A DNA stretch of 32,564 bases from Alphaproteobacteria bacterium. Its GTDB lineage: Bacteria; Pseudomonadota; Alphaproteobacteria; UBA9219. The DNA is taken from positions 1 through 32,564 of the forward strand of contig JAQVZU010000014.1 of assembly GCA_028708035.1 (NCBI GenBank). Reading direction: 5' to 3'. The notes beneath the pieces were generated by a model that was given only the letters and a program-made list of their open reading frames with translations, did not search any database and was not told where the DNA came from. Of this stretch, positions 9,030 through 32,344 are shown in pieces. Within the stretch, counting starts at the first letter, position 1. Each line of letters opens with the position of its first letter. Position numbers and translations under genes: made by a program.

Positions 9030-9437
9030 TTAGCCGTTCTTGAAAATATCCATTAGTTTTTCATCGAACTCCGCATGAGCTTGACGCTCAGACATCTTGT
9101 TCTTCATCCACGAAAGTGCCGCATCCACGGCAATGTCCGCGATTTTGTCCATTTTTTTGCCCATCTTCGCTTCAAGCGCCGCTTTCATTTTTTCAATAAG
9201 CAACTCTTTATGAGCTATTTTGGCCAGCATCATGAGCTCCATGCACTTTTCGTGTTCCCCGCCCATGTTGTTACAGCAGCATGAGCAATTACAGCCGCCG
9301 CCGCATCCGCATGAACACTCTGATGTGCATCCACAACTGCATCTTCCGCTCATCTCTTCATGAAAACCATGCATCGCTCTCCCCATTTTGTGCATTCCAC
9401 TATACATGCCACAAGAACCCGATTTGCATTCGTCCAT
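9030..9437 (-). CDS. Small cysteine-rich, probably metal-binding protein
   Basis: I do not recognise this 135-residue protein. It has 14 cysteines, 13 of them in the first 55 residues, spaced mostly as CxC (residues 33, 35, 37, 41, 43, 45, 49, 51, 53-55), with many Met and several His nearby. A final Cys lies at residue 65. From about residue 65 on it becomes a helical Met/Lys/Glu-rich domain without cysteines. This layout suggests binding of soft metals (Cu, Zn, Cd) or metal clusters, similar in spirit to metallothioneins, but no named family is visible. There is no signal peptide or membrane segment. GGGAGG, 6 bases before the ATG, is a strong ribosome binding site and makes this a convincing gene. 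It is followed on the same strand by uvrB after a hairpin; whether they are co-transcribed is unknown. Confidence 0.8.
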   Translation of the reverse strand: MDECKSGSCGMYSGMHKMGRAMHGFHEEMSGRCSCGCTSECSCGCGGGCNCSCCCNNMGGEHEKCMELMMLAKIAHKELLIEKMKAALEAKMGKKMDKIADIAVDAALSWMKNKMSERQAHAEFDEKLMDIFKNG

Positions 9438-9587: not shown

Positions 9588-11228
9588 TCAAGCCAAGGCG
9601 TCGTCTTTCTTGGCGTTGGGAAGGTCAAGAGAGGGCATCCCAAAATAATATCCTTGCAGATAGTCGATCTTCGTGTTGCGAAGCCACTCCGCCGTTTCTT
9701 GCGTCTCGACGCCTTCCGCGACGGTCTGAATGCCCAACCCTTCAGCAAGGTCGATCAGGACTTTGACTAAATGTTGCTGTTCGTGGTCGGTCAAAACATC
9801 TTTTAAAAGATCCTTGTCGATCTTCATGATCGAAACGCCAAGTTCGCGTAAATATCGCACAGAGGTTGAACCTGCTCCGAAATCATCAAGCGAAACGCGT
9901 GCCCCCAATTCCCGAAGCGTCAAAATGAGCCGCCTTGTTGCGGCGATGTCCACAAGCACCGCCGTTTCGGTGATTTCGACCACGAGACGGCTTGCGATAT
10001 CCGGTTTGTGCTCAAGCATGCTACGCATATGGTCCGCGAATTCGGGCTGCGACGCTGAGAATCCTGAAATGTTCACGGCAAGCGACAGCGAAGGCGCCGC
10101 TTCAAGATCGCGCAGGGCCATCGAAAGAACGAGCCTGTCAAGTTGTCCCGCAAGCCCCAACTGTTCAATAGTTGGAACGAACCGTGCTGCAGGAATAGGT
10201 TTACCGCCTTCTCCGAACATGCGCACAAGCGCCTCATAGCAGACAGGCTGGCTATTTACGGCATCAACAATAGGCTGGTAGGCAAGGCGGAAAGAATTCG
10301 ACTTGAATGCCGCTTTAATTTGCTCAGTTAACTCAAGCAACTGCCTGTTTTCCTGAACACGCAAGGGGCTGTCGATATATTCGATAAAATTGTTAAGTCC
10401 CCGCTGATGCGCCATATGCAAGGCTTGCTCGGCGAAGATCATCGCTTCGTTGGCGTTTTTGGCCACCGTCGGAACGCGTACCCCTCCCACCGAAACGGTG
10501 ATGTGCAAAGGCGCATTGGCTGCGATAAGCGGCGAATTCCGGAAATCGTCGATCACGCGATCCGCAAGCGCTTCAAGATCGTTCCCTAAAGGTTCGGGTA
10601 AAATAATGCCGAAGGTATCTCCTGCCACGCGCCCCAAAACCGCTCGTGTTGGGACGATTTGCGCCAACCTTTGCGCCACACCCCGCAAAACCGAGTCGCC
10701 ACCTTCGGCTCCGATGGCCTCATTGACGAATGACATTTTATCTACATCAATGACAAGATAAGCGCCCACTCGCCGCGCCATCTTGGCGTTTTCGATCATC
10801 CGGGAAAGTTGCGCATGAAGCGCATGACGTTTAAAGCACCCTGTCAGCGTATCGTGCATTGGCTCTTCAGACAAAACCGGGGACCGTTGCGGCGCGTCAA
10901 TAATGCGCCAGACGCCGCGCTGCCTCACGGGATTTTTGTTTGCTCCATTGTCGCACCGCCCGCGCTCATGAACCCAAAGAATGCCGAGCGATGGCGTTTT
11001 TATGCGAAACTGCCGATTAAGCGCGTTGGCCTCTCCGCTAAAAAAGATGTGGAGATCATCCGGATGTATGAGATGAAAGAGCGCCTGGGAATCTTTGGGC
11101 GGGGCATCTCCCTCGAACAAGGCTTTCCAGTTACCAAACCACAGGATCGAGTCTTTGACGAGGTCCCAGTTGTACGCAAGGTCGCCGGACGCCGCTAATA
11201 CCTCGATGAAATCATTTTCCTCGGTCAT
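9588..11228 (-). CDS. PAS / degenerate GGDEF / EAL cyclic-di-GMP phosphodiesterase
   Basis: The 546-residue cytoplasmic protein has a PAS-like N-terminus (about 10-110, with FHLIHPDDLHIF), a GGDEF-fold domain (about 125-285) and an EAL domain (about 300-535). The GGDEF signature is replaced by AGDTF (202-206), so diguanylate cyclase activity is unlikely; such domains often act as GTP-binding regulators. The EAL domain keeps its metal and catalytic residues: EAL at 332-334, Asn386, Glu418, Asp448-Asp449 in DDFGAGST, Lys469, Glu505 and Gln525. It should therefore hydrolyse c-di-GMP to pGpG, lowering c-di-GMP and favouring motility over attachment. The gene lies downstream of the CheX-like gene on the same strand, separated by 327 bp, so it probably has its own promoter. 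It is close to a YfiR/TonB-receptor/kinase set, which suggests the same signalling network; that is inference. Confidence 0.92.
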   Translation of the reverse strand: MTEENDFIEVLAASGDLAYNWDLVKDSILWFGNWKALFEGDAPPKDSQALFHLIHPDDLHIFFSGEANALNRQFRIKTPSLGILWVHERGRCDNGANKNPVRQRGVWRIIDAPQRSPVLSEEPMHDTLTGCFKRHALHAQLSRMIENAKMARRVGAYLVIDVDKMSFVNEAIGAEGGDSVLRGVAQRLAQIVPTRAVLGRVAGDTFGIILPEPLGNDLEALADRVIDDFRNSPLIAANAPLHITVSVGGVRVPTVAKNANEAMIFAEQALHMAHQRGLNNFIEYIDSPLRVQENRQLLELTEQIKAAFKSNSFRLAYQPIVDAVNSQPVCYEALVRMFGEGGKPIPAARFVPTIEQLGLAGQLDRLVLSMALRDLEAAPSLSLAVNISGFSASQPEFADHMRSMLEHKPDIASRLVVEITETAVLVDIAATRRLILTLRELGARVSLDDFGAGSTSVRYLRELGVSIMKIDKDLLKDVLTDHEQQHLVKVLIDLAEGLGIQTVAEGVETQETAEWLRNTKIDYLQGYYFGMPSLDLPNAKKDDALA

Positions 11229-11555
11229 CTAAGGCTAACTTTCTACATAAGAGAAAATCATATTAGACGAAAGGGTGTTAAAAATTGATAAAATGTCAAA
11301 AAATTATCTCAAACTTTATAAAAAACATACCAATGCATGATGAAAATTTTTTTACAAAAAAAACGAAGGATTCACGTCCTCGATTTTCCCATTAGGTTTG
11401 GAGCATTTTGTGTCAGATGCCTTCTTGGCATCATGCTCGTTGTTATGGATTAGTCGCACGCGAAAGGCTGACAATTGTAATTGACATGTCATTGCTGCGC
11501 CGCACCGAGAAATGTAATTACCTCAATGTATCTTTGCTCATTCTGCAAACAGTAG
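11229..11555. other. AT-rich intergenic region with nested hairpin
   Basis: This 327-bp gap between the CheX-like gene and the EAL gene (both minus strand) has no convincing gene. It is strongly AT-rich at 11280-11365. A nested dyad lies at 11401-11438: inner stem GATGCC/GGCATC (11416-11421 with 11427-11432) and outer stem GAGCAT/ATGCTC (11401-11406 with 11433-11438). No T-run follows on the minus strand. It probably holds the promoter for the EAL gene and a 3' structure of the upstream transcript. Confidence 0.5.
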
Positions 11556-12098
11556 TCAATGCGCCTGTATGGGGGATGCTGGGCTGGCGCCTTGCGAATC
11601 GCAGACAAGGCTGAGGCGTATGTGCGCTTCGGGGGAAATCTCGAAATCTTTTTTGAACACGATGTTTGGTGATGGTTGCTCGCAAGGGCAAGCCTCGCCC
11701 ACGACTATGTTCGGGATGTCGAAGTCGAAATAAAGTCCAGGAACTTCTGACAGAACAGTGCGAAGATTATTTCCGACAATATTCGTAAGTTCGCAGACCA
11801 CATCTTGATAAAGCGCAAGAGATTGGTTGTCCGTTTGCACAATGCCCACACGCTTTGCTATAATTTCGGCTGTTGTGCTTTTGATGCGGAAGGAAATGCA
11901 TACTTTAATTTTTTCATGGCGCAAGACAAGACGCGCGGTTACTGAGTCCTCGTCATCGATCACCGCATCGGGCGCGTCGAAAAGAGTGAGGTTAAACATT
12001 AGAAGAAAAACATCTCGCACCAGCCGTTCGATATTTTTCTTGATGGAATCGACTACGTCGGCGCTGACTTTTTCACTGCTTTGTTCAAGTGTGGCCAA
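11556..12098 (-). CDS. CheX-like chemotaxis phosphatase family protein
   Basis: The 180-residue protein resembles CheC/CheX phosphatases, which dephosphorylate CheY-type regulators. The recognisable part is VCELTNIVGNNLRTVLSEV (residues 101-119), matching the ExxN...GN catalytic helix, with Glu103 and Asn106 as the expected acidic and amide residues. The glycine comes one position earlier than in the pattern I know for the family, so this may be a divergent branch. The C-terminus carries CPCEQ and is not recognisable. Its ATG overlaps the end of the CheY-like gene by 14 bp, implying translational coupling and co-expression. The natural inference is that the pair is a regulator and its own phosphatase. 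No membrane segment is seen. The family call rests on motif shape only. Confidence 0.65.
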   Translation of the reverse strand: MATLEQSSEKVSADVVDSIKKNIERLVRDVFLLMFNLTLFDAPDAVIDDEDSVTARLVLRHEKIKVCISFRIKSTTAEIIAKRVGIVQTDNQSLALYQDVVCELTNIVGNNLRTVLSEVPGLYFDFDIPNIVVGEACPCEQPSPNIVFKKDFEISPEAHIRLSLVCDSQGASPASPIQAH

Positions 12099-12519
12099 TT
12101 GTTTCCGCCCATGCTGAGATTTGTTTTATCGCTTCGGCCACTTTTTGTGGCTCGAAAGGTTTTGTAACGTATGCCGTCGCTCCTTTTTTGATTGCTAGCA
12201 TCATATCGCTTATTTCACTGATGGCCGTCAGCATGACGATAGCCATGCTATCCAGCCCTCGATCCTCCCTGCATTTTTCCAGTAGTGCGAGTCCATTCAT
12301 GCCGGGCATCGACCAGTCGAGAATCATGATGCGGAACAGCATGTTTTCGGACTTTGCTTTCTGAAGCTTCTCCCATGCGACAAGGCCGTTTTCCGCTTCT
12401 TCGAAACTGGAATAGCCCATTTCGGACAAAAGATTTCGCATCATCGCTCGGATGATTAAACTGTCGTCAACAATGAGGATGCGACTGTCTTTCACGATCG
12501 ACGGCATTTCTTGTCCCAT
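12085..12519 (-). CDS. CheY-like single-domain response regulator
   Basis: This receiver-only protein has the acidic pocket ILIVDDS, the phospho-acceptor Asp68 in MILDWSMPGMNG (numbered from the ATG at 12519), the switch Thr in VMLTA and the conserved Lys in VTKPFEP. There is no output domain, so it works by protein contact, as CheY does at the flagellar motor or as a phosphorelay intermediate. The frame extends further upstream to a TTG (12555), but that extension is hydrophobic and not part of the fold. ATG at 12519 or 12507 is the likely start; 12507 follows GGGACAAGAA and is equally possible. It overlaps the CheX-like gene by 14 bp and is divergent from the YfiR-like/TonB-receptor/CheA-like kinase genes, whose kinase is the obvious candidate partner. 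Confidence 0.9.
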   Translation of the reverse strand: MGQEMPSIVKDSRILIVDDSLIIRAMMRNLLSEMGYSSFEEAENGLVAWEKLQKAKSENMLFRIMILDWSMPGMNGLALLEKCREDRGLDSMAIVMLTAISEISDMMLAIKKGATAYVTKPFEPQKVAEAIKQISAWAETIGHT

Positions 12520-12561
12520 GGAAAAGATAAACTCGAAACAAACTAACAACAACAAAGTTTA

Positions 12562-12576
12562 TCAAAAAGAGATTAA
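12562..12576 (-). promoter_or_regulatory. CtrA-like half-site pair upstream of the CheY-like gene
   Basis: On the minus strand this reads TTAA-N7-TTGA, one mismatch from the alphaproteobacterial CtrA pattern TTAA-N7-TTAA. It lies 43 bp before the ATG at 12519. It sits in AT-rich DNA, so a chance match is quite possible. Confidence 0.25.
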
Positions 12577-12677
12577 TTATATGTGAGGCGTCGTGCTTCG
12601 CTTAAAAAAATCGAAACAGGTATGAACCCTTTTTCTTTTGCTCATTTTCGTGTTTATGATTTGTAAATAATTATGTT

Positions 12678-12712
12678 TTAACGATCTCCTAACCATACTT
12701 ATTACGGAGATC
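12678..12712 (+). promoter_or_regulatory. Dyad covering the YfiR-like ribosome binding site, with CtrA-like site
   Basis: GATCTCC (12683-12689) is the reverse complement of GGAGATC (12706-12712), which contains the ribosome binding site GGAG of the following gene. In RNA this 7-bp stem would hide that site. Overlapping it, TTAA-N7-CTAA (12678-12692) is one mismatch from the CtrA consensus. Either an operator, a translational switch or coincidence is possible. Confidence 0.35.
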
Positions 12713-12717
12713 ATGTG

Positions 12718-13278
12718 ATGTCCAAAGCGTTTTTTATTTTCTCCCGTTTGAAGAAAACGATGGCGGCCATTGCTGCGGTCGGATTTTTGTTCGCATTGGC
12801 GGTTCCGGCGGCGGCCAAGGAGAACACTGACGTTCTTGTCGGCGTTAAGATTCTGTCGATGCTTAATCGCGAACTGCCCGCGCCCTTGGTGATGGGCATC
12901 GTCTATGATCCTGGTAACTCGGAGTCCAAGTCCAGCGCCGAGTCGATCAAGGCGGTTCTGGACGCTGGTGTGAAAACATCGGAAGGGGCCGGAGTCTCGG
13001 GACGGCTTATTCCTCTTGCCGAAATAGACAAGCTTTCGCAGGTGAGCTTCGCCTTCATCACGACGGGCGTGAAAGCTCAGTTTGACAGAATCGCGCAAAT
13101 CTCCGCGTCTCATGGAATTTTGACCATGACCTCGGATATCGAGTGTGTGCGTGCGAACAAGTGCATCCTCGGGATCGAATCACAGAATGTCGTTCAAATC
13201 TATTTTAGCCGCGCGGCCAGCGAAACGGCTAAGATCAATTTTGATTCGGCGTTCATCATGCTGGTAAAGAAGGTCTAG
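12718..13278 (+). CDS. YfiR-like (DUF4154) periplasmic protein
   Basis: A 186-residue exported protein: basic start, hydrophobic core AAIAAVGFLFALAVP and an AAA-K cleavage region near residue 37. The rest resembles the YfiR/HmsC family, best in its second half, where GILTMTSDIE, ILGIESQNVVQIYFSRAASE and NFDSAFIMLVKKV match the family order of a strand, a glycine-rich turn and a C-terminal amphipathic strand. YfiR proteins are periplasmic and control a membrane-bound partner, classically the diguanylate cyclase YfiN. Here the membrane partner in the cluster is a CheA-like kinase. Two cysteines lie in CVRANKC. The GGAG at 12706-12709 favours the ATG at 12718 over the GTG at 12715. The TonB receptor gene follows after 40 bp, so they are probably co-transcribed. 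Family assignment is by pattern, not by search. Confidence 0.65.
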   Translation: MSKAFFIFSRLKKTMAAIAAVGFLFALAVPAAAKENTDVLVGVKILSMLNRELPAPLVMGIVYDPGNSESKSSAESIKAVLDAGVKTSEGAGVSGRLIPLAEIDKLSQVSFAFITTGVKAQFDRIAQISASHGILTMTSDIECVRANKCILGIESQNVVQIYFSRAASETAKINFDSAFIMLVKKV

Positions 13279-13318
13279 TTCTCTTGGGGCGGTTGGTGTT
13301 TTCGCAAAGGAATATCCT

Positions 13319-15457
13319 ATGAAGAGATCGTTGATGAAAAGCGGTTCGGTGGTCGTTTTTTCTGCAGTTGCCGCCTTTGTTCTTTCCGGCGGGCAGGCAA
13401 GGGCCCAATTCATCAATTACGGCGCTTTGCAGGACATCTTTGATGAGCCGGTTACGACGTCGGCAACAGGAACGCCTCAACGCGCCAGTGAAACAGCTGC
13501 CGACATGACCATCATTACCGCCGATCAAATCCGCCAGTCGGGTCTTCGGAAAATTCCGGAAATTCTCAATATGTATGCGGCGGGCCTCAATCTTCTCCAG
13601 ACGGGCGTCAATGAGTACGACGTCGGTATTCGCGGCTTTCAGCAGCCTTACAGCCCGCGTCTTCTTGTTTTGATCGATGGAAGGCAAGTGTTCAACTATG
13701 ACTATTCACGTACCCAATGGGAAAATTTGCCCATAAACGTTGACGATATTCGCCAGATTGAGGTTGTGCGCGGCGCAAGTTCGGCACTGTTTGGATCAAA
13801 TGCGACAAGTGGCGTCGTGAATATCATCACCTACAGCCCTCTTTATGACACCAATAATGTAGCTAATTTTACCTTGGGGACACAGTCTTCTTATCAGGGG
13901 GACGCAACTGTCACTCAGCGGATCGACCGGGTCGGTGGCGTGAAGGTTTCCACGGGAGGGCTGACTGAACACGAGTTTGCGGGAACGGCGACTGGACCTT
14001 CGGATTATGCCGGGGCGGAGAATCCGTTTCACGGATATGTGAATGGCAGCGGATATTTTAAGGTGTCGCCGACGTTTATCGTTGGCGGCGAAATCTCGGC
14101 GTCCCGCAAGAAGGGCGAGGAGGTCTTGCCTGACTTTACTGAACACACGACGTCCACCACGACCTATTCGGTCCGCGGCGGTTGGCAGTGGGCTTCGCCT
14201 TTCGGGACGATCAAGCATGACAATTATATCAACCAGAATATTCTGGATTATACGGGGCAGTTCCCGAATCCATATGCTTTGCTGGGCGCATACGGAACGG
14301 ATCCCCAAGTAGTGAGCACGACAAACAGTTTGTTCGTTAGTCGTATGGAAGACCTTTTCGATGTCGGGCCGAGCCATACATTCCGCATAGCGGGTGAGTA
14401 CAGGCACAAATACATCACTTTCAAAAGCAATTACTATGACACTTACGAGAAGCCCATCATTAATCAGGATGTTTTCTCTTTAGGCGGAACGTGGCTTTGG
14501 CATATTCGCGACGACCTGTCATGGACGAACGCCGCGCAATATGAAGTTAACCAAATGGATGCGATGGGGGGCACGTTGAACGATACCGTGCTTTTCGGAT
14601 CGACGCAGCCGTACACGAAGGCGGATTTCGATAGGCAATTCCAGACTTTTGCGTTCAACTCCGGCCTTGTTTGGACGGTGACCGATAAGGATACATTGCG
14701 CGCGACCTACGGACGCGGCATTCAGGACCCAAGCCTTATCAACGCGGGCTTCTTTGGAAATGAATATATCACGTCCGGAGCGCCCCCAGGCTATCCGCGC
14801 CTTGTTTACCAGGCTCTGGGCTCGCCTTATATTAAGCCAACTATCATGAACGATTACAATTTGGCTTATGACAGGAAGGTTCCGGAAATTTTCTCAAAGG
14901 TTCACGTTGCGGCGTATTATAAGTCGAGCCGGGATATTATCGGCGACTTGACGCCGACGGTAACAACCGGGCTGGATTCTCATGGCGAGTTGGTGACGAT
15001 CATGACGCAGGGGCAGGGGAATCTTGGGCCTGCGCATGGTATTGGCGGTGAGCTTTCCATTGATGGAACATTCGATGGATTTCGTTGGGATGCGAGCTAC
15101 AGCTATACCTATGTTCACGACAGCGCTGCGGTGAAGGAGCACTTGGCATTTAATGGCTCGGCGCCGCAGCATGAAATTCGCGGACACGTCGGAAAGACTA
15201 TCGGAAAATGGGAACTTGACGGATCGACGCATTATGGCTCGTCTACGGATGTGCTGCGCACGACAACCCCCCTGTCTCTGCCGACAATCGTGCATATCGA
15301 CAATTATTATACGGTCGGCGCGCGCGTGGGGTATAAGATTGACGATAATTTTGTCGTCGCTCTTTCGGGGTCGAATCTCAGCAACATGCGGACTAAGGAA
15401 AATCCATATACGATTCTCGAACGGCGGTTGTTCCTGGGCGTAACGATGCACTTCTGA
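13319..15457 (+). CDS. TonB-dependent outer-membrane receptor
   Basis: The 712-residue protein has a signal peptide ending near residue 29 (SGGQARAQ) and a plug domain (about 45-170) with the typical TIITADQIRQSG, GIRGFQ, VLIDGRQV and IEVVRGASSALFGSNATSGVVNIIT segments. A long beta-barrel rich in aromatic and Gly residues follows, ending in terminal Phe (GVTMHF). Such receptors import siderophores, cobalamin, sugars or other large ligands using TonB energy; the ligand cannot be inferred. No N-terminal signalling domain of FecA type is present, so signalling, if any, would go through the YfiR-like protein encoded just upstream. AAAGGA ahead of the ATG is the ribosome binding site. The kinase gene follows after 116 bp. 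The association of a receptor of this kind with DUF4154 proteins and membrane kinases is known from other genomes, but its mechanism is not settled. Confidence 0.93.
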   Translation: MKRSLMKSGSVVVFSAVAAFVLSGGQARAQFINYGALQDIFDEPVTTSATGTPQRASETAADMTIITADQIRQSGLRKIPEILNMYAAGLNLLQTGVNEYDVGIRGFQQPYSPRLLVLIDGRQVFNYDYSRTQWENLPINVDDIRQIEVVRGASSALFGSNATSGVVNIITYSPLYDTNNVANFTLGTQSSYQGDATVTQRIDRVGGVKVSTGGLTEHEFAGTATGPSDYAGAENPFHGYVNGSGYFKVSPTFIVGGEISASRKKGEEVLPDFTEHTTSTTTYSVRGGWQWASPFGTIKHDNYINQNILDYTGQFPNPYALLGAYGTDPQVVSTTNSLFVSRMEDLFDVGPSHTFRIAGEYRHKYITFKSNYYDTYEKPIINQDVFSLGGTWLWHIRDDLSWTNAAQYEVNQMDAMGGTLNDTVLFGSTQPYTKADFDRQFQTFAFNSGLVWTVTDKDTLRATYGRGIQDPSLINAGFFGNEYITSGAPPGYPRLVYQALGSPYIKPTIMNDYNLAYDRKVPEIFSKVHVAAYYKSSRDIIGDLTPTVTTGLDSHGELVTIMTQGQGNLGPAHGIGGELSIDGTFDGFRWDASYSYTYVHDSAAVKEHLAFNGSAPQHEIRGHVGKTIGKWELDGSTHYGSSTDVLRTTTPLSLPTIVHIDNYYTVGARVGYKIDDNFVVALSGSNLSNMRTKENPYTILERRLFLGVTMHF

Positions 15458-15573
15458 GTTTTGTGGAAAGCTTCGGGCGCCTATTTTCCTAGATTGTTTT
15501 TGCATTCGGGGGGATGGGCTATTAAATTGGGTGCGGATTTTTTATCCGCGTTGACCATTGCTTCCGGTCCTTA

Positions 15574-17859
15574 ATGCCCAAGATTTTCTCGACTTCAAAC
15601 TGGCCTTTTGCGCTGAAGTTCGCCATCCCGTCGCTTTTGGCGCTTATCTTGGTATGCGTCATCGAATATGCGGCGCTGAACGCCCTTAATGTCATTAAGA
15701 ACAGCCTGAACGATGTCGTCGAGCGCAAATATAACGCGAGCCTGCTGCTTGAGCAGTGTGTGGACCGTTTGCGCGCCGTTAATGGCGAACTGTATCTGCT
15801 TCAGACGAAAAAAGCGGCGGGAATGGAGCAGGACGTCGTTCAGAGAACGAAGGAGCTTTCGGACCAATTGGAGCAGATATCCGTCTCGTTGTCCCGATTT
15901 AAAAGTTACTATGCTCGGCCAGAGGACTTGCCCCAAATCGATGGCGCGCTCCAAAATGTTCGCCAGTATCGCAAAGCAGTCGGTTTCGTGGGCAGCATGC
16001 TCGACATCGATTTCAAGGCAACCGTGACGTTTATCGTTCCTTTGCGCGGTGCCTACGAAGAAATGATTGGCAACCTGTCATCGGTTTCCAATGATTTTCT
16101 TGTCGCATCCCGCAAGGCTTCCGAGAGGGCCGACTCTTTAGCGCGCGCCCGAACGCAATTTATTCTTATCTTCAGTTCGGCGGTGCTGATCCTGTCGCTG
16201 GGGGTTATGATTCCTCTCGCTTATTCAACCGTGCGGTCTATCAAGACGTTGGCTGCGGCTACCGTACATCTGGCCGATGGTGACACACGGATCGATCTTA
16301 ACGCGCTTGCGCGCCATGACGAACTTGGACGCCTTGTCAGCGCGTTGACCGTTTTCCGCGACAATATTGAGCGCGTGGCGATGCTTAAGAAGGTTTCGCT
16401 GCTTTATGCGTCGATGAACGCAATGCTCAACTCGCTGAAGGAAGGGCTTTTTACCTTCGGTCCCGACGGAGTGTGCTCGGAAAATTACTCAACGGCTTGC
16501 GTAAAGCTTTTGAATCAGACGCCTTCGGGGCATCCTTTGGCGGATGTTTTGAACATGTCGGCCTCGGAGCGAGAAGGCTTGCAAGAATTGCTGAACCTTA
16601 TCTTCATCGGTAGCGATACTTTCGCCATGTCCGTTCAGAGCCTTTTGGACATGCTGCCACGATACTACTACGATGCCGACGACAAAGTTCGCAAAGGCGA
16701 GACGCCGATTTCTTTGGCCTATCGCCCGATTTTGAATGCTTCGGGAAATGTTCAGTCCGTGCTTGTAATTGCGACGGATCATTCGGAAGAGATCGCGGCG
16801 GCGCAGTTGAATCAGGAAAGACAAAACAGGGTTCTGCGCACATTGCGGCTTTTGTCGAGCCGGAACATGTTCGTGCGCTTTTGGAACGGGATTATGGACT
16901 TCTTTTCCCAACCGCAGAAGCTTTTCGCCGACGCATCGCTGGAGCAGGTCAAGCGCGATGTCCATACCTTTAAGGGCGTGGCGGGGATCTATTATCTCGA
17001 TAAGGTCGCGAAGAGCCTGCATCATGTTGAGACCGTTTTCCCCGATAGCATTGAGCCGGGATTTAAGGGCGATACCGTTTTGATGGCGGCTCTTGTCTCG
17101 GTGAAAACGGCGCTGTCGGAAGCGCGCGAGGAAATCTCGGAGATCCTCGGGCCGTCGTTCGATAAGCAGGGGATGATCCGAACGATTTCGCTCGACTCCC
17201 TGAAGGACGTCCTGTCCTGTATTCCGGCGGATGAGGCAAACGCGGCGCTTCGTTTAAAATACACGACGCTGTTGATCGGCGAGCCCATCCACAGCCTCTT
17301 GGCCAACACTCAGGCGGAACTGCGCGAGCTTGCGGACCGTTACGGAAAGGCGCTTGAGCAGCCGCGGATCGAAGGCGAAAACTTCCCGATCCTGACAGAA
17401 TCATATGGGCATGTCTTCGCGAGCCTGACGCACATTTCCAGAAACATTATCAGGCATGGGGTCGAGGAGCCCGACGTTCGCAAGCAGCGCGGCAAGCCGG
17501 AAAAGTGCACAGTTATTATCACAACCGAAAAGATCAAACGAAATGGCGCAGATTGGTTTCGCATCGTTTTCCATGACAATGGCAGCGGCATCGATCCCAA
17601 TCGGCTTAAGCAACTGCCCGCGATTGCATCGAACAAGGCCTTGGCGAAAGCGAGTCGTGAAGAGCTCTTGCAGCATTTGTTCGACGGCAATATGTCGACG
17701 GCTAATGAGGTCACGGCTCTTGGAGGGCGCGGCGTGGGGATGTCGGCGGTGAAAGTGGCTGCTGAGGAAGTGGGCGGGAGCGCTCGCATCGAAAGCTCGT
17801 TCCACAATTATACGAAGATCGTGATCGAACTGCCATTTATCTGGAAGATAGCCGCATAA
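15574..17859 (+). CDS. Membrane-bound HAMP / Hpt / CheA-type ATPase sensor kinase
   Basis: The 761-residue protein starts with a membrane segment (about 13-35), a periplasmic helical region (about 36-193), a second membrane segment (about 194-216) and a HAMP linker (about 217-270). A PAS-like region (about 280-410) precedes an Hpt-like helix with KRDVHTFKGVAG (phospho-acceptor His464). The C-terminal ATPase is CheA-like: N-box ISRNIIRHGVEEPDVR near residue 618, G1 box DNGSGID (668-674) and G2 box GGRGVGMS (about 717). There is no HisKA domain and no CheW-like P5 domain, so it does not look able to dock in a classical receptor array. Phosphate would pass from His464 to a receiver, plausibly the CheY-like protein encoded divergently. 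The start is the only sensible one, since an upstream in-frame GTG runs into a stop. The last gene of the YfiR-like/receptor/kinase set, it is followed after 4 bp by an IS remnant. Confidence 0.88.
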   Translation: MPKIFSTSNWPFALKFAIPSLLALILVCVIEYAALNALNVIKNSLNDVVERKYNASLLLEQCVDRLRAVNGELYLLQTKKAAGMEQDVVQRTKELSDQLEQISVSLSRFKSYYARPEDLPQIDGALQNVRQYRKAVGFVGSMLDIDFKATVTFIVPLRGAYEEMIGNLSSVSNDFLVASRKASERADSLARARTQFILIFSSAVLILSLGVMIPLAYSTVRSIKTLAAATVHLADGDTRIDLNALARHDELGRLVSALTVFRDNIERVAMLKKVSLLYASMNAMLNSLKEGLFTFGPDGVCSENYSTACVKLLNQTPSGHPLADVLNMSASEREGLQELLNLIFIGSDTFAMSVQSLLDMLPRYYYDADDKVRKGETPISLAYRPILNASGNVQSVLVIATDHSEEIAAAQLNQERQNRVLRTLRLLSSRNMFVRFWNGIMDFFSQPQKLFADASLEQVKRDVHTFKGVAGIYYLDKVAKSLHHVETVFPDSIEPGFKGDTVLMAALVSVKTALSEAREEISEILGPSFDKQGMIRTISLDSLKDVLSCIPADEANAALRLKYTTLLIGEPIHSLLANTQAELRELADRYGKALEQPRIEGENFPILTESYGHVFASLTHISRNIIRHGVEEPDVRKQRGKPEKCTVIITTEKIKRNGADWFRIVFHDNGSGIDPNRLKQLPAIASNKALAKASREELLQHLFDGNMSTANEVTALGGRGVGMSAVKVAAEEVGGSARIESSFHNYTKIVIELPFIWKIAA

Positions 17860-17863
17860 TCGC

Positions 17864-18494
17864 ATGCGCATCAACCCATGGCGCGCACGGCTGGATCCGT
17901 TCATCGACATGAAACACCCATTGGTGCGGCTGAGCCGGAAGATCGATTGGGGATACATGAGCGAGACGTTCAGGGCAGTGTATAAAGACGGTCCCGGCCA
18001 ACCGCCGTGCCCACGCGGCTGATGGTCGGGCTTGCGATCATCAAGCATATGGAAAACCTGTCGGACGAAGACCTGACCGAGCGGTGGGTGCGCGACCCAT
18101 ATTACCATATTTGTGCGGGGAAGAGTTCTTTCAGCACAAAGCGCCGTTCGACCGGTCTTCACTGACGCATGGGCGAGGAACGCCTGTCGGCGTTGATCTT
18201 GGAAGAGGCCATGTGGACAAAGGCTACAAAGGCCACAATTACAGGAACAAGTTCAAAATCTGGATCACGGATCAAGTCCGCAACGTCACGAAACAAATCC
18301 GGCGCGAAATGAAGCGCCGCGCTGCCGTTGAGCCCGTCATCGGTCACGTCAAGGCCGAACACCGCATGGGAACAAATTATCTCTCAGGTCACAGCGGCGA
18401 CCGCCTCAACGCCGTCCTCGCTGCCGCTGGCTTCAACTTCCACCTCCTGCTCAGGTGGTTCGCCGCCCTTTTATTGCGCCTCTTAGCGTTTTAA
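17864..18494 (+). pseudogene. IS5-family transposase remnant
   Basis: The N-terminal part reads as an IS5-type transposase (MRINPWRARLDPF, SRKIDWGYMSETF) until a one-base loss near 18005 shifts the frame, after which LMVGLAIIKHMENLSDEDL continues in another frame. Another shift near 18110 opens CGEEFFQHKAPFDRSSLTH, and a deletion at 18170-18215 removes most of the catalytic core. The C-terminal piece (VDKGYKGHNYRN, RRAAVEPVIGHVKAEHRMG) is intact in frame up to TAA at 18494. With several frame breaks and a missing middle it cannot be active. No clear terminal inverted repeats or target duplication were found at the edges. It sits directly after the kinase gene and shows a past insertion between the signalling genes and cutA. 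Confidence 0.85.
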
Positions 18495-30840: not shown

Positions 30841-31033
30841 AAGATTCATCCCTAATAGAAATCTGTCTTTCCAAGAATAGCGGATAGCATATTTCAGGAT
30901 CTTTTAAACAGGCGTTTTTCTCTCGCTTTAGTTGAATAGGCTTTTTGAATTGCGAATCCTGCGTTCTGCGGCGTATAGGGTACACAGGACGGCGTCACTG
31001 GGAAAGATATCGCATACGGGGAACCTGAATACG

Positions 31034-32344
31034 ATGGAAGACAACAAGGACGAAAACGGCAGCGGTGAAGAAAGTCTTCGCCGATTGACCCAGCAGGAAC
31101 TGGAAAAAATAATCAAAAAGCACGAAGATTTTACCACGGGGCGCAAGGGAGGGATTCGCGCCAATCTCTCACATTATAACCTTGAGGGAATGTCGTTCGT
31201 CTCCAAAGACCTTTCGGATGCCGATTTTACGGGGTCCTCTTTGAAAGAGGCCGATTTCTCGAACACCAAGCTCGACAGGGCCATTTTATATTGTGTCGAT
31301 CTGCGCGGCGCGAATTTGCTCGGCGCTAGCCTCAAGAATGCCGATCTGCGCGGCGCCTCATTGCGAGGCTCGAACATGATCGGCGCGAATATGACCGGAG
31401 TCGACTTGCGCGAGGGATCGCTTTCGACATCGACGCGCGAAGGCGGTTTGAAGGAAGCTCATGAGCAGTTGACCATTGCCGACAAAGGGGGCGCGAACCT
31501 TTCGGGCGCAAATTTGAATGGCGCTAAGATGTCCGGCGCGGTCGCGGTGGGCAGCAATTTCAGCGACGCGACCATGAAGGGAGCGAAGATCAGAAAGGCA
31601 AGTCTTAGGAATGCCGATTTCAGCGGCACCAATCTTGAAAATGCCGACATGAGCGAATGCGATCTGGAGAACGTCGTTCTTAAAGGCGCCGTTTTGACTG
31701 GAACCGCTATTAACCTTAGCGAGGTGAAGAAGGAAAACCTTGAAGGCGCTTTGATGAGCACGCCTCACGGGCTTACCGTCAAGGATATGGAAACGCCTGT
31801 TGCAGAATTGCTTGCTCTGCACAAGCAGTGGGTCGAAAGCAACGGCAAGATAGGCAAGCAGTTCGACGTGAGCGGATACGATCTTCGCGGAAACATAGAA
31901 TTGAGCCATGAATGCCTGATCTTGATGAGGGCCAAAGGCGCTATTCTTTACGAGCTCGATCTCACGAAGACGCAGTTGCAGGGCGCGGATTTCCGCGAGG
32001 CGGACCTGCGCCATGTCAACTTTACCAATGCCGATCTGCGCGGCGCGAATTTCGAAAAGGCGCAGCTCAGAAACGCTATTCTGACAGGGGCAAAGCTGCA
32101 GACGCTTGTATTGTCAGAAGGGCACAAGATGCCTACAAGCATGAAGGGAGCCTCTTTGCGCCATGCGATCATGACCAAGGCTGTCTTCCGCGAGGTCAAT
32201 TTCGAAGGCGCGGATTTGATGGATGCCGATTTGCGCGGCTCGGACATTACGGACGCGAACTTTAAAGGCGTGATGTTCGAAGGCTTGCAGACAGACCCCG
32301 AACAGCGCGAGATCATCAAAAAGACATTCAGTCCGAAATATTAG
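31034..32344 (+). CDS. Pentapeptide-repeat protein with repeated helical module
   Basis: The 436-residue protein consists mostly of pentapeptide repeats of the A(D/N)LxG type (for example DLRGANLLGASL, FREADLRHVNFTNADLRGANF), which fold as a right-handed square beta-helix. There are no membrane segments or signal peptide. Two copies of a helical module introduce repeat blocks: residues about 22-52 (KKHEDF then 17 residues to SHYNLEG) and 256-286 (ALHKQW then the same distance to SGYDLRG). A third, weaker one may be at about 138-155 (LKEAHEQL then KGGANLSG). The function is unknown; some pentapeptide proteins mimic DNA and protect gyrase, most have no assigned role. The frame is open to a TTG at 30932, but ATG 31034 with GGGGAA about 10 bases upstream is more plausible. 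Confidence 0.9.
   Translation: MEDNKDENGSGEESLRRLTQQELEKIIKKHEDFTTGRKGGIRANLSHYNLEGMSFVSKDLSDADFTGSSLKEADFSNTKLDRAILYCVDLRGANLLGASLKNADLRGASLRGSNMIGANMTGVDLREGSLSTSTREGGLKEAHEQLTIADKGGANLSGANLNGAKMSGAVAVGSNFSDATMKGAKIRKASLRNADFSGTNLENADMSECDLENVVLKGAVLTGTAINLSEVKKENLEGALMSTPHGLTVKDMETPVAELLALHKQWVESNGKIGKQFDVSGYDLRGNIELSHECLILMRAKGAILYELDLTKTQLQGADFREADLRHVNFTNADLRGANFEKAQLRNAILTGAKLQTLVLSEGHKMPTSMKGASLRHAIMTKAVFREVNFEGADLMDADLRGSDITDANFKGVMFEGLQTDPEQREIIKKTFSPKY

Follow-up and report, generated by a model that had tools for sequence, protein, structure and literature searches.

How might the state of a receptor in the outer membrane reach a phosphorylation event in the cytoplasm? A gene cluster at positions 9588-17859 of the alphaproteobacterial contig JAQVZU010000014.1 raises this question. 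We analysed the whole contig of 32,564 nucleotides, here called the window, which is contig C59 of a host genome of 2.09 Mb in total. Five genes are at issue: a YfiR-like periplasmic protein, a TonB-dependent receptor and a membrane kinase on the plus strand, and a CheY-like regulator and a CheX-like phosphatase on the minus strand. By its alignments the kinase is a chimera. Its input half resembles chemoreceptors encoded beside YfiR-like proteins and TonB receptors, and its output half resembles kinases encoded beside CheY and CheX. We propose that the five genes form one signalling pathway spread over two divergent units, with the chimeric kinase at its centre and the neighbouring EAL protein left out; we put the probability of this reading at about 0.6.

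An initial annotation had named six genes in this interval. All six open reading frames are present there, and their families are identified by Pfam and, for the YfiR-like protein, by its fold. The overlap of the regulator and phosphatase genes and their divergence from the receptor set, both part of that annotation, are also as described. The features are as follows.

9588-11228, minus strand: PAS-GGDEF-EAL gene with a degenerate GGDEF domain; a neighbour, judged to lie outside the set
11556-12098, minus strand: CheX-like phosphatase; TTG start; overlaps cheY by 14 base pairs (bp)
12085-12519, minus strand: CheY-like single-domain response regulator; the reading frame, 12085-12555, opens with TTG at 12555, and the likely start is ATG at 12519 or 12507
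12556-12714: divergent intergenic region of 159 bp between the two transcription units
12715-13278, plus strand: YfiR-like (DUF4154) periplasmic protein, 187 residues; probable start ATG at 12718, after CGGAG
13319-15457, plus strand: TonB-dependent outer-membrane receptor, 712 residues; plug and barrel by Pfam
15574-16389, plus strand: kinase input half, residues 1-272; two membrane helices, periplasmic helical bundle, HAMP
16402-17859, plus strand: kinase output half, residues 277-761; PAS-like, Hpt and CheA P4-type HATPase domains, no CheW domain

On the plus strand, 40 bp separate the YfiR-like gene from the receptor gene and 116 bp separate the receptor gene from the kinase gene. No sigma-70-like site was detected within the 159-bp region, a scan for promoters and terminators gave no more matches than chance, and no RNA element reached the gathering scores of Rfam.

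The two halves of the kinase

The whole kinase gene (15574-17859, plus strand) encodes HAMP, Hpt and HATPase domains. Hydropathy places membrane helices near residues 12-30 and 195-215, and the modelled helices (10-81, 85-113, 119-142 and 148-215) form a bundle, with low model confidence around the HAMP domain at residues 215-266. This sensor half matches no Pfam family of its own. Beyond it, the structure model shows a PAS-like domain at about 290-401. The Hpt domain scores 24.0 bits in Pfam, just below 24.6, and carries the motif HTFKG at 464, where H464 is near-invariant. The HATPase domain scores 49 bits; phmmer alignment to CheA structures spans residues 571-757, and Foldseek matches the output half to CheA P3P4 and P4. 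Pfam finds no CheW domain in the protein, which stops after the HATPase, and a CheW search of the host's genome misses the window. Because the CheW (P5) domain is core to all CheA proteins surveyed (PMC10542144), we call this kinase CheA-like and not a CheA.

Where do the two halves come from? Residues 1-272 are 41-42% identical to methyl-accepting chemotaxis proteins (MCPs) encoded in clusters with YfiR-like proteins and TonB receptors (genomes G009 and G018). Residues 277-757 are 38-39% identical to a group of kinases, here called type II, encoded in CheY-CheX-kinase operons (G006 and G016). In local alignments the MCP matches end at residue 272 and the type II matches start at 272-281, just past HAMP. 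These alignments mark the kinase as a chimera with its junction at about residues 272-281. On the simplest reading, either the signalling domain of a chemoreceptor was swapped for a type II kinase output or the input of a type II kinase was swapped for that of a chemoreceptor; the alignments fit both directions equally. We tried the EAL gene together with uvrB as a syntenic anchor for the site of insertion and rejected it; synteny of the two was not seen in relatives, so they give no proof of such a site. A broken insertion-sequence remnant (17865-18494, plus strand; DDE_Tnp_1_6 at 18084-18494) begins within about 10 bp of the kinase stop codon.

Two modules that recur elsewhere

The periplasmic protein scores 16.6 bits against Pfam DUF4154, below the cut-off of 24.9, and for this reason we name it only YfiR-like. 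Its predicted model (mean predicted local distance difference test score 83.7) matches the fold of Pseudomonas aeruginosa YfiR (4yna; Z 15.4, root-mean-square deviation 2.7, 143 residues), a match to be read with the fact that related substrate-binding proteins score almost as high as YfiR structures against the same model. In an alignment of 13 rows, C144 is invariant and C150 near-invariant; they occupy the positions of the C-terminal disulphide pair of P. aeruginosa YfiR, Cys145-Cys152 (PMC4655355). A search of the host's genome with the DUF4154 family model returned no match, which is a limit of sensitivity, as fold and alignment favour the assignment. The receptor is identified by its Pfam scores (Plug 70 bits, starting at residue 57; barrel 68 bits).

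Pairs of this kind are not peculiar to the window. In the host's order, represented by 33 genomes in the collection, YfiR-like and TonB receptor genes adjoin at nine other loci, the majority of those read; outside the order they do so at nine of the ten YfiR loci read. The cluster's third gene in G009 and G018 encodes an MCP with a sensor half homologous to kinase residues 1-272. Co-directional trios with such an MCP occur also in G377, G157, G301 and G334, in varying gene order, for a total of six alphaproteobacterial genomes. Other pairs adjoin GGDEF-EAL or EAL proteins (G355 and G363; loci L173 and L178), another MCP (G115) or, in G267 and several members of the order, hybrid kinases.

The output half belongs to a second recurring unit. 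A cassette-type kinase is found in 30 of the 33 genomes of the order, and in 24 of these we read a complete cassette with CheX between CheY and the kinase; several of the remaining cassettes are truncated at contig ends or went unread. This cassette, whose kinase has Hpt and HATPase domains but lacks a CheW domain, is an ancestral feature of the order. The host holds a complete core copy at G000:C82 (L066:2985-5815); for this locus and 23 others like it in the order we found no description of function in the literature. A sample of 289 genomes of the class yielded CheX in six, of which three belong to this order.

The window's own copy is different. Its kinase output half is 28% identical to the core type, and in the kinase tree it joins the type II kinases of G006 (C68) and G016 (C96) and a further relative in G249 (support 98/94). 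Including the window's, four type II kinases were found, and each has an adjacent CheY-CheX pair. The CheX protein (Pfam CheX 28.2 bits, above the cut-off of 27) groups with type II and not with core CheX. In its motif, DVVCELTN, E103 and N106 are invariant across 21 relatives, and D99 and P129 are also conserved; motif and family match make it a putative CheY-P phosphatase. The CheY protein (Pfam Response_reg 88.8 bits) keeps the DDS, LDWSMP, MLTA and TKP motifs and falls outside the core-cassette clade, its placement being otherwise not settled. The window's CheY, CheX and kinase are a second, divergent copy of the order's cassette, whose input has been replaced and whose genes have been split into divergent units.

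A scan of genome contigs gave matches in records of G006 and G016 only. The kinase matches its full profile at 2.3e-169; profile matches in hundreds of genomes cover the ATPase part only, as happens with canonical CheA, and were discounted. Beyond the order, full-length matches are found in G249, G415, G703 and G705, and in two genomes outside the class, G415 and G703, CheX and CheY lie nearby. Several of these relatives are of interest in themselves. The operon at G249:C6 (L094:6788-10798) runs CheY-CheX-FIST-kinase; the FIST-FIST_C protein between CheX and the kinase suggests that a sensor of the nitric oxide (NO) or heme type acts on the same output. In G703 (L152:7678-12890) a 4HB_MCP-HAMP-PAS-Hpt-HATPase kinase is followed by CheX (326 residues) and CheY, and G705 (L153:7805-12909) has a similar kinase and CheY with a 328-residue frame in the position of CheX, making a parallel set of membrane-bound CheA-like kinases. 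G268:C74 (L096:1696-3547) carries a tandem pair of CheX genes behind CheR.

From modules to a pathway

How would the five products work together? We propose that a ligand binds to or enters through the TonB receptor and thereby alters the YfiR-like protein, which would contact the periplasmic helical bundle of the kinase. HAMP would pass the change to the PAS-Hpt-HATPase output, and the kinase would autophosphorylate H464. The phosphate would move from H464 to the partner CheY, and CheX would reset the signal by dephosphorylating it. The kinase would have arisen when the input half of a chemoreceptor linked to YfiR and a TonB receptor was placed before the output of a CheW-less, CheA-like type II cassette kinase. 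We infer the steps from receptor to bundle because the trio of YfiR, TonB receptor and sensor recurs and because YfiR of the P. aeruginosa YfiBNR system offers a precedent (PMC4655355), and the phosphotransfer steps because the cassette recurs. CheY-P probably targets the flagellar motor, a target made possible by the host's FliM and its two canonical CheA/CheW loci; since the host has those loci of its own, we take the window kinase to be separate from the array kinases.

Would ligand turn the kinase on or off? In P. aeruginosa YfiR represses YfiN (PMC4655355), and the YfiR-like protein has the same fold. It is conceivable, at somewhat less than even odds, that free YfiR-like protein represses the kinase and that loading of the receptor sequesters or releases it, so that ligand means kinase on. 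The kinase sensor is a helical bundle, however, and not the periplasmic PAS domain of YfiN, and the set has no YfiB-like gene. This choice of sign is compatible with the five-gene pathway and does not exclude it.

Several observations weigh against the five-gene pathway itself. The exact set was found in one genome only. The contact between YfiR-like protein and kinase and the phosphotransfer to CheY are predicted links. Several YfiR-TonB pairs in the order have no adjacent gene of the sensor family, and the 116-bp gap before the kinase exceeds the 28 and 43 bp of the MCP clusters. G005, G004 and G008 have a type II CheX but no type II kinase, so that kinase and CheY-CheX are not always inherited together. 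The deep branches of the CheX and CheY trees are poorly resolved.

A competing explanation is that the plus-strand and minus-strand units are chance neighbours. The kinase would then serve another regulator, such as the CheY of the host's complete core cassette, and the window's CheY would be fed by another kinase. That G005 has a type II CheY-CheX pair without the kinase, and G004 and G008 CheX alone, fits this explanation. Yet every type II kinase found adjoins a CheY-CheX pair, in the kinase tree as in the CheX tree the window falls outside the core clade, and the two units share the divergent region; we consider chance neighbourhood unlikely. With the full set not seen in another genome, we regard it as a local combination of two recurring modules, and one that exceeds chance because YfiR-TonB adjacency and CheY-CheX-kinase each recur in relatives.

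The weakest alternative, a single pathway of the five genes and the EAL phosphodiesterase with cyclic di-GMP (c-di-GMP) as output, is very improbable. In its favour, the EAL gene shares a strand with cheY-cheX and lies downstream of cheX after a gap of 327 bp, its EAL motifs are present, and YfiR-TonB pairs elsewhere do adjoin such proteins. Against it, the protein has a PAS domain but lacks a receiver domain that could take CheY-type input, and its orthologue, found across the order, stands apart from the set genes in 14 order relatives. The EAL domain scores 223 bits and keeps its motifs while the GGDEF motif reads AGDTF, so the protein is probably a phosphodiesterase only. The orthologue is present in nearly every genome of the order searched (56-75% identical within the genus), and the 14 order neighbourhoods that were read contain neither a CheX or kinase of the cassette nor a YfiR or TonB gene; a c-di-GMP output therefore lacks comparative support here, and we rejected the six-gene unit. 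The EAL gene is an order-wide resident neighbour. In G355 and G363, where GGDEF-EAL or EAL proteins adjoin the pair, a c-di-GMP link is present. Two further genes lie outside the cluster. One, at 9030-9437 (minus strand), encodes a 135-residue protein in which Cys, Gly and Met are highly abundant; it matches nothing in Pfam at 0.01 and possibly binds metal. The other, at 30932-32344 (plus strand), encodes a pentapeptide-repeat protein of 470 residues.

The relay drawn in the initial annotation thus survives in part. Its course from receptor through periplasmic relay and kinase to CheY and CheX is carried by the recurrence of both halves as linked units; its c-di-GMP end finds no support, with the EAL orthologue beside set genes in 0 of 14 order neighbourhoods. 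Co-occurrence of the six genes in relatives was not seen, nor was the five-gene set seen in any other genome. Each component comes from a known family, and the combination was not known to that annotation as a described system. In the literature we came across no account that links YfiR to TonB receptors and to chemoreceptors or kinases, and none of CheW-less membrane kinases paired with CheX, with subscription journals mostly outside the coverage.

A more general idea, for which we see about an even chance, is that a TonB receptor, a YfiR-like protein and a transducer of the helical-bundle/HAMP kind make up an input unit from outer membrane to cytoplasm with interchangeable outputs: MCP, GGDEF-EAL protein, hybrid kinase or CheW-less CheA-like kinase. 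The locus would record a natural move from chemoreceptor to a stand-alone kinase that bypasses the array. If so, bacteria have a reusable route by which an outer-membrane receptor controls cytoplasmic phosphorylation through a YfiR-like adaptor, one that can be rewired at the HAMP junction. With an input half common to different outputs, the locus makes it possible to test directly whether YfiR-like proteins convey the state of TonB receptors to inner-membrane transducers. It further draws attention to CheA-like kinases that are bound to the membrane, lack CheW and are paired with CheY and CheX, a class of which little has been described.

Comparison with known systems

The closest precedent on the input side is YfiBNR of P. 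aeruginosa, whose HAMP-containing transducer is under the control of YfiR (PMC4655355). There, as proposed for the window, a YfiR-fold periplasmic protein with a conserved C-terminal cysteine pair is thought to connect the outer membrane with an inner-membrane transducer that has a HAMP domain. The window differs in having a TonB receptor in place of YfiB, a helical bundle in place of a periplasmic PAS domain and a kinase in place of a diguanylate cyclase; the third gene of the plus-strand unit encodes the helical-bundle kinase and not a YfiN-type cyclase with a periplasmic PAS domain. TonB-dependent transducers of the FecA/FpvA type carry an N-terminal STN signalling domain, whereas Pfam finds no STN domain in the window's receptor, only plug and barrel. 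The YfiR-TonB-MCP clusters of the six genomes share with the window the YfiR and receptor families and the sensor half up to residue 272; their output is an MCP signalling domain and not a kinase.

On the output side, CheA with CheY and CheX resembles the window in its Hpt phospho-acceptor, its P4-type ATPase, a CheY that is the candidate substrate and a CheX with the E..N motif. Unlike CheA, the window kinase is anchored in the membrane with its own sensor and HAMP, has no CheW domain, no P2 that we found and a reduced P3, and by its architecture needs no receptor array. The cassette of the order shares with the window all three genes and the PAS-like, Hpt and HATPase output, but its core kinase is about 580 residues long without the YfiR-linked sensor, while the window's copy is divergent and split into two units. 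In NosP-NahK and HnoX-HnoK (PMC8846402), as proposed here, a separate sensor protein controls a kinase, and the cassette relative in G249 has a FIST protein; those systems sense NO or heme, work with c-di-GMP regulators and lack the outer-membrane input that we propose for the window.

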